Assembly: GCA_016929595.1 (NCBI GenBank) | Contig: JAFGIN010000105.1 | Location: 1 to 45,670 of the forward strand | Direction: 5' to 3' | Length of the DNA stretch: 45,670 bases | DNA from: Chitinispirillaceae bacterium | GTDB lineage: Bacteria; Fibrobacterota; Chitinivibrionia; Chitinivibrionales; Chitinispirillaceae | Shown here: positions 22,340-28,912 of the stretch, piece by piece | Numbering within the stretch: position 1 is the stretch's first letter | How the letters are laid out: each line of letters starts with the position of its first letter | The notes under the pieces: generated by a model | What the model saw: only the letters and a program-made list of their open reading frames with translations | What the model was told of the DNA's origin: nothing | The model's database searches: none | Program-made: the position numbers and the translations under genes

Positions 22340-22704
22340 CTGGTAGCATTGCCGAAACCCAATCATGAGTCACCAATAATCCCTACAGTTCTATTAATTT
22401 TTCAGTTTTTCAGGTTTTTCACCCGACACTAAAATTCTCAATCTCAGTGATTTCCTTTAAATTATCTGGCGATAAAATTGCAATTATTTTAAACCTGAAT
22501 CAGACAATTTTTTACAACAGTTACACAAGATGTTGAGTAGGGATGACATGTAAATAACGCAGATAATCTCTGAATATGATGAACATTTTTGTCACCTGAA
22601 TCATTGTGTGAAAGAGCAATTCTCCAGTTCAGGATTAAGTACCTGAAAAGGCAATTCACCCTGGAAAATTCCTGAAATTATTGGTATCTCAAAAAGGCAA
22701 AACG
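22340..22704. other. Upstream region of the curli export genes
   Basis: 365 bases without a gene. It contains the AAACCTGAATC motif at 22491-22509 and a shorter ACCTGAATC at about 22595. It should hold the promoter of csgE-csgF-csgG. No CsgD-type regulator gene lies here. Confidence 0.55.
22491..22509 (+). promoter_or_regulatory. AAACCTGAATC motif upstream of csgE
   Basis: AAACCTGAATCAGACAATT, 17 of 19 identical to the copy at 23175-23193 before csgF. A shorter ACCTGAATC occurs near 22595. It is a candidate operator for the curli genes; no known regulator site was recognised. Confidence 0.35.
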
Positions 22705-23157
22705 GTGAAAACCCCTGTAATAATAGTAAGTGCTATGTGTGTTCTTTTTAAGCCATCGATTACTAATGCAGAAACTCTCAATCGGCTTAACGAAATTTTA
22801 AACGAGATCACAATAAATAATTGTGAACGATCTCAAAAATCGGCTATGCATACTGAAAGTAATGTACTTATTATTAACAACACCAAAACTACTAAGGGTC
22901 AACTCTTTTACAACTGGTTTTATGCTAACTGGAATACTACTGAACATCATACCGATTATTTTCTCACAATACAAGAAAAAGTAGTATCCCGCCAGCGCAG
23001 TATGCTCTCTATTGCTATTGATGAGTATAGCATCAGCACTTTTTTTTTAAATGAAAAAGATATCGATTTTGATAACATTGGACGTGAGCAGATAGAAACA
23101 GTACGATATTTTTTGAAGCACCCGGAATCGATGTACAATCATATTTACAAAGATTAA
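22705..23157 (+). CDS. csgE: CsgE-like curli export accessory protein
   Basis: The protein has 150 residues from a GTG at 22705 (AAAAAGGC upstream); the TTG at 22681 lacks a site. A signal peptide (VIIVSAMCVLFKPSITNA) is followed by a linker. The core LIINNTKTTKGQLFYNWFYANW, then DYFLTIQEKVVSRQRSMLSIA and STFFLNEKD, matches CsgE in order and spacing (E. coli TVSSIGHDFYRAFSDKW, NLTINERPSARWGS). CsgE is a periplasmic cap of the CsgG channel that steers curlin subunits. Its place just before csgF and csgG supports the call. The overall identity is low. Confidence 0.8.
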   Translation: MKTPVIIVSAMCVLFKPSITNAETLNRLNEILNEITINNCERSQKSAMHTESNVLIINNTKTTKGQLFYNWFYANWNTTEHHTDYFLTIQEKVVSRQRSMLSIAIDEYSISTFFLNEKDIDFDNIGREQIETVRYFLKHPESMYNHIYKD

Positions 23158-23174
23158 AGATACTAAATAATAAC

Positions 23175-23193
23175 AAACCTGAATCGGATAATT
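23175..23193 (+). promoter_or_regulatory. AAACCTGAATC motif upstream of csgF
   Basis: AAACCTGAATCGGATAATT, 18 bases after the csgE stop and about 117 before csgF. It is the second copy of the motif at 22491-22509 (two differences). Confidence 0.35.
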
Positions 23194-23309
23194 GTTTTAC
23201 GAGATCTGTTTCAAGGAAGGAATTAACATAAGGTGCTATAGCTGGCAACTGGTCTCTACGCCCGAAAGTCAGGTTAAGCAATAATTTTACCAAAAGAAAG
23301 GGTAGTATT

Positions 23310-23744
23310 ATGAGAAGAGAACTGGTATTCGTTTTTTTGTTTTTGATAATGTTATTTAATGTTAAAGCTTCTGAACTTTTTTACGTTCCCACAAATCCTT
23401 CATTTGGAGGTAACCCTAATAATGCAGCATGGCTGATGAATTCCGCTGTTAGTCAGAATGAAATAACCGATATGGACAATAAGGACGTCTTCAATCGCGA
23501 TCCCCTCCAGGAATTCAAGGAGAATCTCAACAGGCAAATTCTAAGCAGATTTTCAAGTGAGATTGTGCAGGCTGCATTTGGGGATAGTCAGGATGATCTG
23601 AAAGAGGGTACCTATCAGATTGGTGACTTTGTTGTCGATGTCAGGCCGTTGAATAGTAATATACGAGTAGTGATAACCGATAATGGAACCGGGAACCAGA
23701 CTGTAATAGAGGTGCCGTACTATGAATCAACTAAAGTTGAATAA
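23310..23744 (+). CDS. csgF: CsgF-like curli assembly protein
   Basis: The protein has 144 residues, ATG at 23310 with AAAGGG upstream. A signal peptide (FVFLFLIMLFNVKA) precedes ELFYVPTNPSFGGNPNNAAWLMNSA, the best-conserved CsgF block (PxFGGNPxN), then FKENLNRQILSRFSSEI and FVVDVRPLNSNIRVVITD. CsgF caps the outside of the CsgG pore and positions the nucleator. Its last 23 bases overlap csgG. The internal block DDLKEGTYQIGDFVVDV is also family-like. Confidence 0.93.
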   Translation: MRRELVFVFLFLIMLFNVKASELFYVPTNPSFGGNPNNAAWLMNSAVSQNEITDMDNKDVFNRDPLQEFKENLNRQILSRFSSEIVQAAFGDSQDDLKEGTYQIGDFVVDVRPLNSNIRVVITDNGTGNQTVIEVPYYESTKVE

Positions 23745-25122
23745 AAGGATAGTTTGGTTAACAGGCTACTACATTTTGATAATGAATTCATTACTAATCG
23801 CAAAAAATTCAATATTTAAGGCGACCATTGGATATACAACAGCGATACATGAGGAATTGAGATCGTTACCACCACCGCAATCACCTATCGTAGTAGCGGT
23901 TTATGAGTTTAGAGATCAGACTGGACAGTATAAAACAGGTGCATTCGGACAATCCTGGTCCACGACTGTAACTCAAGGCGCTACTTCAATGCTGATTAAA
24001 GCGCTTGAGGATTCTAAATGGTTCATAAATGTAGAACGCGAGGGTCTTTCCGATTTGTTAAATGAGCGAAAAATTATTTCTGCATCTCGTGAAATTCAGG
24101 CCAAAAGAGATGGAGAACAACCGGTTCCGTTGCTCCCATTGCTTTATGCCGGGATAATTCTGGAGGGAGGGATTATTTCTTATGAGACCAATTTAATCTC
24201 CTCCGGATTAGGAGTCAGATATTTCGGGCTTGGAGGTAGTGCAAAATTACAGCATGATCGTGTGACTGTCTATTTGCGGGCTGTTTCAAGTCAGACAGGA
24301 CAGATAATCAAAACTGTACATGCATCGAAAAATATTTTTTCAAAGCAAATAGAGGGCGGCCTTTATCGTTTTGTAAGGTTTAAGAAATTATTGGAAGTTG
24401 AAGCTGGTATTTCCACAAATGAGCCAGTGCAAATGTGTGTATTGGAAGCAATTGAAAAAGCTGTTCTCTCTTTAATTATTGAAGGTTTGATAGATAAAAC
24501 ATGGTTCCTTTTACATAAAGAGGATATGAATTCAACGGTTATAAAGGAATATTTTAAAGAAACGGAAAAAGAAAGTGCTTTTGAAAGTGCCCCTATCGCT
24601 CTGTTTAATAATAAACAGTTACACTATAGTCAACTTACAGGTACCCAGTTAACTGGAGAGGAAGGTCATCGGAACATTCACCTAATGGTAAAGAGCCAAC
24701 TCCAGTATGACTTTAATCCATTTATTTCATGTATTTTTGGGATTGGCGTTGGAAAAATATCTGGAAATTTAGCAAGGGATGGATTAGGGATTATTGTCGA
24801 TTTGAAAACATCAGTGGATTTTTTACCCCAACGCCAGATTTCTCCCTGTGTAAATAGTGGTGTTGGTATGATTAAATCATGGGTTACAAATCCAAATTCA
24901 TTAAAAGATCAAAAATACCCCTTGGGGATTGTACCTGCGTTTGTTTGGGGATGTGGAGTACGTTATTCTATCAATAAAATGAACAAAGTACTTTTTACCA
25001 TAGAAAACTATATCAGTACAGATGATATTGATGGGTTGAGCAGCAAAATTGATTCAGATAAAATAGTTGCTTTTTCGTTAGGTTTATCCGCAGCATTAAC
25101 AGGTAGAAATAAAATAAAATGA
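23722..25122 (+). CDS. csgG: CsgG curli channel, with extra C-terminal domain
   Basis: The protein has 466 residues; E. coli CsgG has about 277. The ATG lies inside csgF. The CsgG domain (about 30-280) is clear: VAVYEFRDQTGQYK, TSMLIKALEDSKWF, REGLSDLLNERKII, ILEGGIISYETNLISSG, GVRYFGLG, SSQTGQIIKTVHASK, STNEPVQMCVLEAIEKAV. It forms the outer-membrane pore for curlin export. Two odd points: the N-terminus has no lipobox Cys, unlike E. coli, and about 185 extra residues (from 285) are beta-rich with GIGVGKISGN and CGVRYSINK, like a small outer-membrane barrel. The constriction-region residues also differ (SW where E. coli has NF). Confidence 0.95.
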   Translation: MNQLKLNKRIVWLTGYYILIMNSLLIAKNSIFKATIGYTTAIHEELRSLPPPQSPIVVAVYEFRDQTGQYKTGAFGQSWSTTVTQGATSMLIKALEDSKWFINVEREGLSDLLNERKIISASREIQAKRDGEQPVPLLPLLYAGIILEGGIISYETNLISSGLGVRYFGLGGSAKLQHDRVTVYLRAVSSQTGQIIKTVHASKNIFSKQIEGGLYRFVRFKKLLEVEAGISTNEPVQMCVLEAIEKAVLSLIIEGLIDKTWFLLHKEDMNSTVIKEYFKETEKESAFESAPIALFNNKQLHYSQLTGTQLTGEEGHRNIHLMVKSQLQYDFNPFISCIFGIGVGKISGNLARDGLGIIVDLKTSVDFLPQRQISPCVNSGVGMIKSWVTNPNSLKDQKYPLGIVPAFVWGCGVRYSINKMNKVLFTIENYISTDDIDGLSSKIDSDKIVAFSLGLSAALTGRNKIK

Positions 25123-25257
25123 GGACATATCTATACAATTTCTGAAACAAGGTCATATTATTGTGAGAAAGCCGTTGTGTTCATACCGACAATACATGTA
25201 CCACACCAGAACGATCACTTCCTCACACTACCCTGCACATTATACCCATGAGCTGTT

Positions 25258-25845
25258 CTATCTGCCATTGATCACATTCATTCTCATCCCGTTACCATCC
25301 TGGGTAATCCGGTATCCAAGGCCACCCTGGCTATTTTCCACACGATAAATCTGATTATCAGAACCATATTGCATAATACAACTGGAGATGTCGTCTCCTG
25401 TAACGATCTGGACTGATTTGTTGTTTTGTCCAAATTGTCCAAGCAAGGTAAGATTCCGGTCACCATCTGTTTTTTGCTTTCCACTGTTATTATTTCCACA
25501 TTGCAGGAGTATGTTTACATTGTCATTTCCTGATTGTTCAATAACAGCACTATTTGCAGATCCGTCCTGAACAATGCAGGCATTGTTGGCCCCCTGTTTC
25601 TCAATTAAGTCAGTCTGTACAATTTTAGCGTAATGGCTATCGCCGTTCTGTAGTATTGACGCAAGTGTTTTTTCCGGAGTCTTTTTTCTTTTGTATAGTT
25701 CGGCAGCAAGCCTGTCCATCACTATCACATTTTCATACTCAATACTATGCAGGTAATCAGAGACTACCTCGCATTTATCGGATGCATGAGTATCTGCCAT
25801 TCGACAGAACATAAGAAGTACCAGACAATACACTTCTGATTTCAT
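25258..25845 (-). CDS. csgB: Curlin-repeat protein, CsgB-like
   Basis: The protein has 195 residues from the ATG at 25845, 10 bases behind AAGGAG. A signal peptide (SEVYCLVLLMFCRMADTHA) is followed by a 50-residue non-repeat part and then about six curlin-type repeats rich in Gln, Asn and Gly: CIVQDGSANSAVIEQSGND, LLGQFGQNNKSVQ, CIMQYGSDNQIYRV, YRITQDGNGMRMN. It lies second after the larger curlin gene with a 93-base gap, and convergent to csgG. The lower repeat regularity and the extra N-terminal part suggest the minor or nucleating subunit, but which is nucleator is inferred. Confidence 0.82.
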   Translation of the reverse strand: MKSEVYCLVLLMFCRMADTHASDKCEVVSDYLHSIEYENVIVMDRLAAELYKRKKTPEKTLASILQNGDSHYAKIVQTDLIEKQGANNACIVQDGSANSAVIEQSGNDNVNILLQCGNNNSGKQKTDGDRNLTLLGQFGQNNKSVQIVTGDDISSCIMQYGSDNQIYRVENSQGGLGYRITQDGNGMRMNVINGR

Positions 25846-25938
25846 AGGTTCCATTCTCCTTATTATGTCCTTGAAAGTCAAACCTTAAATAGCGCTCTGT
25901 TTTCAAAAAACAGAGCACAGAATTTGAGTTCTATCTCA

Positions 25939-26889
25939 TCAATAAACCACACCCTGTGTTACGCTTGCAAAGTTATATAATCCGTTTTGTACTACATAGC
26001 TTTCATCATGATTAGCACCACTCGTTTGCAATTGTTCAGCGCGATTATAAGAACCGTTCTGACAGATCTCCGCTCTACTGCTTGGCAATATATTATAGCC
26101 CTGGCGTTGAGTTGCCTGATTATATTCACCATTCTGACATATTTTTGCACTATTATTATCTGAGCCATAATTCTGGTCTTGTTGTGCTGAGTTATATTGG
26201 CCATTCTGAAATATCCTGGCCGAGTTATTATAGGAATCTTCCCATTGGTCTTGACTTGCCTCATTATGTCCACCATTCTGACATATTGTTGCACAATTAT
26301 AATCTGATTGTAATTCCTGAGATTGATCTGCAACGTTTTGTTTACCATTCTGGGAGATGTCCTCTCTACTTTCACGGACACCTTCAATCTGGTCCTGACT
26401 CGCACTATTTTGATAACCATTCTGACATATCTTTACAATACTGTTAAGGGTTCCTTTATGTTGTTCCTGCATAGCTTCGTTTTTAATTCCTGTTTGGAAG
26501 ATATCTGACCTGTTATCATAGGAAAAAAAAGTCTGAGATTGTTGTGCCTGATTATACCTGTTTTCCTGTACTATTTTCCCATTATTATTACCACCCCCCT
26601 CCTGGATTTGTATAGCGGTATTGAAACACCCATTTTGCTTTATGTAAGCGTCATTGTGTATCCCTACTTGATCGTCACTATACATCTCATCAACCGTCTG
26701 GTTTTGCTTTGCGCTGTTATAATTTCCTTTTTGAACTATTTCTGCACTATTATACGCTACATTGTTCTGCACTTGTACAGCGGAATCACCGATTCCGCAC
26801 TGTTGTATTTTTGAATAATTATTTCCTGCTTCAAAGGCTGTTGAAGAAGCAACCAGTAATGAGATGCTAATTCCATGTAAAAATTTCAT
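25939..26889 (-). CDS. csgA: Major curlin-like amyloid subunit with about 12 repeats
   Basis: The protein has 316 residues from the ATG at 26889 with GGAAAGGA 6 bases upstream. A signal peptide ends SSTAFEAG. Nearly the whole mature chain is 12 repeats of 23-25 residues with the pattern xIxQNGxxNxAxQxQ, e.g. RIFQNGQYNSAQQDQ and KICQNGEYNQATQRQ. That is the curlin (CsgA) strand-loop-strand pattern of amyloid beta-solenoids. E. coli CsgA has 5 repeats and no Cys; here Cys recurs at the same repeat position in four repeats (ICQNG), and nearby in three more. It is secreted through CsgG and forms extracellular fibres. It is transcribed away from the C1 protease gene and precedes the CsgB-like gene. 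Confidence 0.93.
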   Translation of the reverse strand: MKFLHGISISLLVASSTAFEAGNNYSKIQQCGIGDSAVQVQNNVAYNSAEIVQKGNYNSAKQNQTVDEMYSDDQVGIHNDAYIKQNGCFNTAIQIQEGGGNNNGKIVQENRYNQAQQSQTFFSYDNRSDIFQTGIKNEAMQEQHKGTLNSIVKICQNGYQNSASQDQIEGVRESREDISQNGKQNVADQSQELQSDYNCATICQNGGHNEASQDQWEDSYNNSARIFQNGQYNSAQQDQNYGSDNNSAKICQNGEYNQATQRQGYNILPSSRAEICQNGSYNRAEQLQTSGANHDESYVVQNGLYNFASVTQGVVY

Positions 26890-27286: not shown

Positions 27287-28912
27287 ATGAATACATTTCC
27301 AACTCTTACACTATGCATTATTGGCTTGCTAACCACTGCACTGACAGCAGATCAGGTCAGAAAACCGGTTCTGGACTCAAATGGTAAGGAAACCGGCAGT
27401 TACAATATCAATCCCAATCCTGATGGAGAACCATGGCTGGTCACTCCGATGGAAATAACTCCTGAGGTTCAGCAACACCTGGATGCCATTCCCGAATGGG
27501 AACCCCGGAAAGCTCTTTCAAAATCCAGAGCCTCCTCACTTCCCCGTTCAGTCAACCATCTCAAGGAACCTGAATTCAGGCCGGTTTTTTCTCAGAGAGG
27601 GGGCAGTTGCTCCGCAGCAAGCGGAACCGGGTATGTATACACATGGGAAGCCAACATTTTGACAGGTGCATCAGGTCAGTCAAATCGATGCATGTATTCA
27701 TTCGGATACAACTTTCTCAATGGCGGCAACTCAGAAAATGGCATCTGGTGGTATGATGCATGGAATATCATGAAATACACCGGATGTGTCCGCGAGGCCG
27801 ACTGGCCCTCACCATTGGGACGTGAAAACAGTACAGAATGGGCGAATACCTATGAAGCTTATCACAATGCCAATTTTGACCGTTGTTCGACCTATTATAA
27901 AATCAGTAAACCAGGGACTGCCGAGAACCTTATTAAAGTGAAACAATGGATATACGACCACGGAAGAGGTGATCCCAAGGGCGGCTGCGTTCAGCTCAAT
28001 GCCGGAGTGGAATTCAAAGAAAAAACGATTCCGCAGGGAAGCGCTGAAGCCGGCAGCAAAATAGCAACTGTCTATGATGGACCAAACACCATTCATGCAA
28101 TGATGCTTGCAGGGTACAACGATGACGTTTATCTCGATGAGAACAAAAAAGGCGCATTTCTACTTGTTAACAGCTACGGGAAATCATTTGGTACCAATGG
28201 TACTATGTGGATCCCCTATAACAAATTTACCTCTGAAACAGAGGTCTACCTACTTGAAGTGGTAAAGCATACTCCCCGTCTTGAATTCAAGATCGAACTG
28301 CAGAGCTACGGTAAAACCAGTGGCAGGTTCACTTCGGGATTTTCATCGGATTTAGCTGCACCTGCACCCAGAGACACACAAAACTACGGGAATGCTTTTC
28401 GGGGTAACACCGGAAAGTTTACAGGAGAAGTTGGAATAGATTGCACGAAATTCTGGAATGCTTTTTCGAAAAACAATCTCAACGGCAAATTTTTTCTAAA
28501 ATCGAAGGGAACGGGCACCATAAAATCTCTTTCGCTGATGATGTATGACTCAACCGGCAAAAAGCTCATTAAAGAGATCAAGTGTCCGCAGACAGGTACC
28601 GCGCTCGGAACAACAATGAGTATAACTATCGAGAATGCAGTGGCTGTTCACGGATGGTCAGTAAAGCAACAGGCACCTCAATCAATCGCACTGCGCAGGA
28701 TACCTGCTGGTGGTTACCTGTTATTCGTTCCGTTTGATATTGACTCAAAAGTGTCGATTAAAGACATTCAGGGGCGTGAAGAGAAGACTTGCAGTCACAG
28801 AGGTGGCTCCTTGTATTCACTACCTCAGCTTATCAGTCCAGGAATCAAAATTGTTACCGTTAGAACAAAAGGTACTTTTCATTCAGCAATGGTAATTGTT
28901 TACAGACAGTAA
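27287..28912 (+). CDS. Papain-like (C1) cysteine protease, secreted
   Basis: The protein has 541 residues, with AAAAGGAG before the ATG. A signal peptide (TLCIIGLLTTALTA) precedes a propeptide-like stretch. The catalytic Cys108 is in SQRGGSCSAASGTGYVYTWE (compare QGxCGSCWA), His270 is in IHAMMLAGYND, and Asn295 is in LLVNSYGKSFGTNGTMWIP. These are the C1A catalytic residues in order. About 220 residues with no clear family follow, and the C-terminus (YLLFVPFDIDSKVSIKDIQGREEK) is the sorting-like tail. It is likely an exported protease. It converges on the GH2 gene, whose stop lies 17 bases away. Confidence 0.88.
   Translation: MNTFPTLTLCIIGLLTTALTADQVRKPVLDSNGKETGSYNINPNPDGEPWLVTPMEITPEVQQHLDAIPEWEPRKALSKSRASSLPRSVNHLKEPEFRPVFSQRGGSCSAASGTGYVYTWEANILTGASGQSNRCMYSFGYNFLNGGNSENGIWWYDAWNIMKYTGCVREADWPSPLGRENSTEWANTYEAYHNANFDRCSTYYKISKPGTAENLIKVKQWIYDHGRGDPKGGCVQLNAGVEFKEKTIPQGSAEAGSKIATVYDGPNTIHAMMLAGYNDDVYLDENKKGAFLLVNSYGKSFGTNGTMWIPYNKFTSETEVYLLEVVKHTPRLEFKIELQSYGKTSGRFTSGFSSDLAAPAPRDTQNYGNAFRGNTGKFTGEVGIDCTKFWNAFSKNNLNGKFFLKSKGTGTIKSLSLMMYDSTGKKLIKEIKCPQTGTALGTTMSITIENAVAVHGWSVKQQAPQSIALRRIPAGGYLLFVPFDIDSKVSIKDIQGREEKTCSHRGGSLYSLPQLISPGIKIVTVRTKGTFHSAMVIVYRQ

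Follow-up and report, generated by a model that had tools for sequence, protein, structure and literature searches.

The major curlin-like subunit encoded in the genome of a Chitinispirillaceae bacterium (phylum Fibrobacterota) carries several cysteines in one and the same register of its repeats, which raises the question of what such residues could contribute to a curli fibre. An earlier note, made from the letters of this DNA, had proposed that they stack along one face of a beta-solenoid and there form disulfides or bind metal along the fibre. We followed this proposal through the window, i.e., the whole stretch of 45,670 nucleotides that was analysed (contig JAFGIN010000105.1, assembly GCA_016929595.1), and through the source genome, its phylum and a survey of related curlins.

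The curli locus and its major subunit

The gene of the major subunit lies next to that of a minor one and to three csg genes, with the following coordinates in the window:

22681–23157, plus strand: csgE (Pfam CsgE, 1.9e-9)
23310–23744, plus strand: csgF (Pfam CsgF, 4.1e-40)
23722–25122, plus strand: csgG, 466 aa (Pfam CsgG, 1.9e-58 over residues 49–257)
25258–25851, minus strand: minor curlin (CsgB-like), about 196 aa (Pfam Curlin_rpt, 2.9e-10)
25939–26889, minus strand: major curlin (CsgA-like), 316 aa, 12 curlin repeats (Pfam Curlin_rpt, 5.4e-10)

csgE, csgF and csgG (22681–25122) all pass the Pfam cut-off and are found alongside the curlin genes. Judged from these family matches, the locus is a standard curli (type VIII secretion) set, in which the expected genes for export and nucleation are predicted to be present. 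The reading frame of the major subunit runs on the minus strand from an ATG at 26889 to a stop codon at 25939–25941, and its product scores 39.5 bits against the curlin repeat family (Curlin_rpt, PF07012; cut-off 20.7). Twelve repeats fit the curlin pattern N/S-X5-Q-X4-N-X5-Q of about 23 residues, most of them spaced 24 residues apart, with Q7 and Q18 kept in all 12. The sole match in a phmmer search of PDB sequences is 8c50, the curli subunit of Pontibacter korlensis (4.4e-17), and the NCBIfam equivalog for enterobacterial CsgA (NF007470) gives 76.6 bits, below its curated cut-off of 160. On these matches the protein is a curlin, but not an orthologue of enterobacterial CsgA. A further trait of its repeats is a glutamine at the core-facing position 16 of motif b (N-x-A-x-Q-x-Q) in 11 of the 12; glutamine is found at this position in 14% of 1671 related curlin repeats.

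With 466 aa, the CsgG encoded here is similar in length to those of Hymenobacter, Spirosoma and Salinibacter (plasmid homologues, 450–469 aa) and unlike the copy on an E. coli plasmid (about 277 aa), and its C-terminal extension resembles that of Bacteroidota and Salinibacter CsgG. Within this extension (window 24500–25122, after residue 257), NCBIfam gives PorG-like outer-membrane matches that are very weak (E 0.04). CsgG relatives are also encoded by at least 555 stretches of IMG/VR viral contigs, with 37–47% identity in the best 80, and none of these best 80 of the at least 555 viral loci contains a curlin ORF of at least three regular repeats. On the other side of the curlin genes, a 541-aa predicted exported protein (27287–28912) has no Pfam or NCBIfam match; by eye, its GSCSAAS, HAMMLAGY and NSYG stretches resemble C1 cysteine peptidases.

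Neither a search of the proteins in 168 genomes of the phylum nor a contig scan with the protein returned a direct orthologue of the major curlin. Positions 22681–26889 of the window are the sole curli locus found among these genomes, and since curlin repeats or a CsgF above the cut-off occur in just one of the 168, horizontal acquisition of the locus is probable. Another genome of the same order has a weak and partial match to CsgF that stays under the cut-off (E 0.004). Contamination was considered as a source of the window and is unlikely, given that its composition agrees with that of its own genome (r 0.974).

Register and stacking of the cysteines

The repeats were numbered by alignment to the published curlin motif, N-$-P1-$-P2-$-Q, arc, N-$-P-$-P-$-Q, in which the $ positions (2, 4 and 6) are surface-exposed (PMC10192328). 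The seven cysteines of the major curlin (residues 31, 88, 155, 199, 203, 251 and 276) then fall as follows, all on the minus strand:

26797–26799, minus strand: C31, position 8 (arc 1) of repeat 1
26626–26628, minus strand: C88, position 10 (arc 1) of repeat 3
26425–26427, minus strand: C155 (TGT), position 6 of repeat 6
26293–26295, minus strand: C199, position 2 (outward) of repeat 8
26281–26283, minus strand: C203 (TGT), position 6 of repeat 8
26137–26139, minus strand: C251 (TGT), position 6 of repeat 10
26062–26064, minus strand: C276 (TGT), position 6 of repeat 11

The four cysteines within ICQNG of strand-motif a thus occupy position 6 in repeats 6, 8, 10 and 11 (R6, R8, R10 and R11), exactly the shared register that the earlier note had read. 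It had also reported nearby cysteines in repeats 1, 3 and 7; those of R1 and R3 are confirmed, whereas the one assigned to repeat 7 is C199 and belongs to R8. None of the seven is found at a core-facing position, and the repeat cysteines of the minor curlin are likewise outward (positions 4, 8 and 4).

An AF2 model covering R5–R12, with an alignment of 33 related segments, reached a mean pLDDT of 71.8 and a pTM of 0.70; a single-sequence AF2 model reached a pLDDT of 47.9, and R1–R4 gave no confident model. The R5–R12 model superimposes on P. korlensis CsgA 8c50 with Z 22.9 and an rmsd of 1.4 Å over 185 residues (VIA-align), and on the E. coli CsgA fibril 8enq with Z 15.7 and an rmsd of 1.1 Å over 111 residues; as modelled, the fold of R5–R12 is the canonical curlin beta-solenoid. 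From R5 to R11, every repeat has position 6 as residue five of the corresponding strand, which, together with the surface exposure of the $ positions, supports a predicted stacking of the position-6 cysteines along the outside of sheet 1. The alignment along one solenoid face expected in the earlier note is consequently borne out by the structure prediction that it had named as a check.

From R1 to R12 the residues at position 6 are Q V K V F C S C F C C V, so that C251 (R10) and C276 (R11) are the only pair on adjoining rungs and the ladder is broken. The usual rung spacing of cross-beta structures is 4.8 Å. With this spacing assumed, C155, C203 and C251, which follow each other two rungs apart, would be separated by about 9.6 Å, and the succession of cysteines on consecutive rungs within bonding distance that was looked for, as in ladder proteins, is absent except at R10/R11.

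Four cysteines in one register are somewhat more than chance would give. The probability that at least four of seven share a register is 0.0013 if all sites are allowed, 0.005 if non-core sites are allowed and 0.024 if outward strand and arc-1 sites are allowed. However, the DNA of R8 shows 83% identity to that of R10, and R6 shares 70% with either of them; because these repeats are related, the four cysteines are not independent events and duplication explains part of the column. R11 keeps its cysteine despite differing from R6, R8 and R10 at 4–5 of 10–11 shared codons. About the same uniformity is seen in other outward columns (lysine four times at position 4, serine four times at position 13 and tyrosine six times at position 11), and within R6–R11 column 6 has 6 identical pairs out of 15, a value that any of eight columns would reach by chance with a probability of 0.08.

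Related curlins and the host envelope

The survey of related curlins comprised 81 loci found via CsgG, with 130 curlins and 1671 regular repeats; it leans toward the 80 top-ranking CsgG matches, most of which come from Bacteroidota, and its repeat pattern demands a glycine at position 9. The mature part is free of cysteine in 118 of the 130 curlins and none of the 130 has two cysteines in one register, so that the ladder would be a trait private to the source genome, as far as these data go. Across all 1671 repeats only eight cysteines lie within the 18 motif positions, one of them at position 6. Conservation in homologues, the other check named in the earlier note, therefore went against a conserved ladder. 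No report of natural cysteine ladders in curlins was found in the literature searched, an absence that is weak evidence.

Two of the surveyed curlins are rich in cysteine, a rare trait that they share with the source protein: those of a Bacteroidota MAG (L050:2-832, 9 Cys) and of Puteibacter (L056:4794-6053, 14 Cys). Unlike in the source curlin, their cysteines mostly lie in arcs, in loop insertions or in extensions of the N-terminus (e.g., GCMPCVETDCC in L056), and none occurs twice per register. The P. korlensis CsgA (R15.5, 8c50) has curlin repeats and the beta-solenoid fold in common with the source curlin, yet its surface ladders consist of Asp/Glu (PMC10192328), in contrast to one apolar outward column with four cysteines here. 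E. coli CsgA (8enq) shares the solenoid, and the csgE/F/G export genes are the same as at the source locus, but it has five repeats and no cysteine, as opposed to 12 repeats and seven cysteines. That E. coli CsgA is devoid of cysteine, as the earlier note had stated, agrees with the literature (PMC7264389) and with the csgA and csgB of an E. coli plasmid, in which we counted none; the residues at position 6 of this csgA are Y S T S T.

Engineered cysteines have been studied in E. coli. In CsgA-CC two introduced cysteines form a disulfide, and the protein stays soluble and non-amyloid until reduced (PMC7264389). In vivo, A63C and double variants of CsgA produced no curli and may be retained in the periplasm and degraded, whereas V140C alone still makes curli (PMC7264389). 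Both CsgA-CC and the source curlin are curlin solenoids with cysteine; those of CsgA-CC are engineered and located in turns, whereas those of the source curlin are natural, mostly on a strand face, and encoded in a genome without recognisable Dsb oxidases. As a disulfide blocks amyloid formation by E. coli CsgA, an oxidising envelope can be expected to disfavour cysteine in curlins, and no such pressure would act in a reducing one.

Which of these conditions holds in the host was approached through its gene content and its exported proteins. In the source genome, searched with known Pfam families on one assembly of 95% completeness, no recognisable DsbB or VKOR was found, DsbA gave sub-threshold matches and none above the cut-off, and neither a heme-copper oxidase (COX1) nor a cytochrome bd oxidase was detected. 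VKOR is also missing from many of the comparison genomes, and the absences are therefore informative only when taken together. About 1.05 Mb of the source genome, screened with a home-made signal-peptide rule, yielded 101 predicted exported proteins with a cysteine content of 1.09%, compared with 0.15% at CsgG loci of other bacteria. The 2.2% of the major curlin is equalled or exceeded by 13% of the sampled exported proteins, and their cysteine counts show no bias toward even numbers (35 even, 54 odd). The set of absences suggests that the host is probably an anaerobe with a reducing envelope in which disulfides are not made. A general link between cysteine-bearing curlins and missing VKOR or COX1 was looked for in other genomes and not borne out: the Puteibacter genome has both, unlike the source genome, which shows neither, and many genomes with cysteine-free curlins lack VKOR.

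Possible roles of the outward column

With V, I, L, F, M, C, W and Y taken as apolar, cysteine being included by choice, position 6 is apolar (V/F/C) in 9 of the 12 repeats compared with 13 of 60 residues at the remaining outward positions of the strands (Fisher p 0.0007), an observation made post hoc, after the data had been seen. The enrichment persists when the cysteine cells are removed (p 0.021). An apolar fraction of 0.75 at position 6 is reached by none of the 94 related curlins with at least six repeats, and at any outward position by 3% of them. Given this bias and the fact that the column-6 codons for cysteine (TGT) and phenylalanine (TTT) are one base apart, the position-6 cysteines are, from sequence, best viewed as one apolar component of a surface stripe.

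Other explanations have to be weighed against this. A neutral column, produced by drift in a cysteine-rich proteome and by repeat duplication and serving no function, would account for the kinship of R6, R8 and R10 in DNA, for other outward columns being equally uniform, for a cysteine content within the range of the host secretome and for related curlins doing without cysteine at this site. We nevertheless regard it as unlikely, since position 6 is apolar even without its cysteines and R11 has kept its own through much synonymous divergence. It is improbable that disulfides formed after secretion, be it within the R10/R11 pair or from one fibre or subunit to another, cross-link the fibre on meeting an oxidant. 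The sites are outward and in register, with R10 and R11 on adjoining rungs, and disulfides did arise from cysteines engineered into the interface of curlin subunits (PMC10192328), but there is just one adjacent pair, the known disulfide machinery was not found in the source genome, the exported proteins are without an even-number bias, and an intramolecular disulfide halts amyloid formation by CsgA (PMC7264389).

It is highly improbable that the cysteine column binds ions of soft metals (Fe, Zn or Cd, for example) over the length of the fibre. The column would offer four thiols per subunit on one outward face across six rungs, yet the spacing C-S-C-F-C-C allows at most one two-thiol site per subunit, the protein has no Cys-X2-Cys motif, and the cysteine sites are conserved in no relative found. 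The disulfide or metal function put forward in the earlier note is thus not supported, the ladder being broken, no known disulfide-forming oxidase being found in the genome and a designed disulfide blocking CsgA amyloid. We also consider it quite improbable that an anaerobe here builds a thiol-bearing curli fibre, whose reduced outward cysteines would be used extracellularly as an O2 cross-linking switch or as a contact to soft metals or minerals.

The explanation that we hold to be probable is that reduced cysteines form part of the outward apolar stripe, are tolerated because the host envelope appears reducing, and were partly spread by repeat duplication. Homology and the model suggest that the major subunit would be exported unfolded through CsgG and then fold into a 12-rung beta-solenoid fibre, with column 6 as an outward apolar stripe (V/F/C in 9 of 12 rungs) in which cysteine is a frequent filler. 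An envelope with no recognisable disulfide-forming oxidase would leave the subunit reduced and hence secretable, and the run of cysteines may have been extended in part as repeats were duplicated. As to the functional surface, the stripe is a likelier candidate than thiol chemistry, and it could serve, for instance, in lateral fibre packing or adhesion.

The major subunit is a true curlin whose surface is unusual but private to the source genome. The occurrence of a natural cysteine-bearing curlin in a genome lacking recognisable disulfide oxidases suggests that the scarcity of cysteine in curli reflects the oxidising envelope of their hosts and not the solenoid itself, and the source curlin is also a natural scaffold whose surface thiols are in register.
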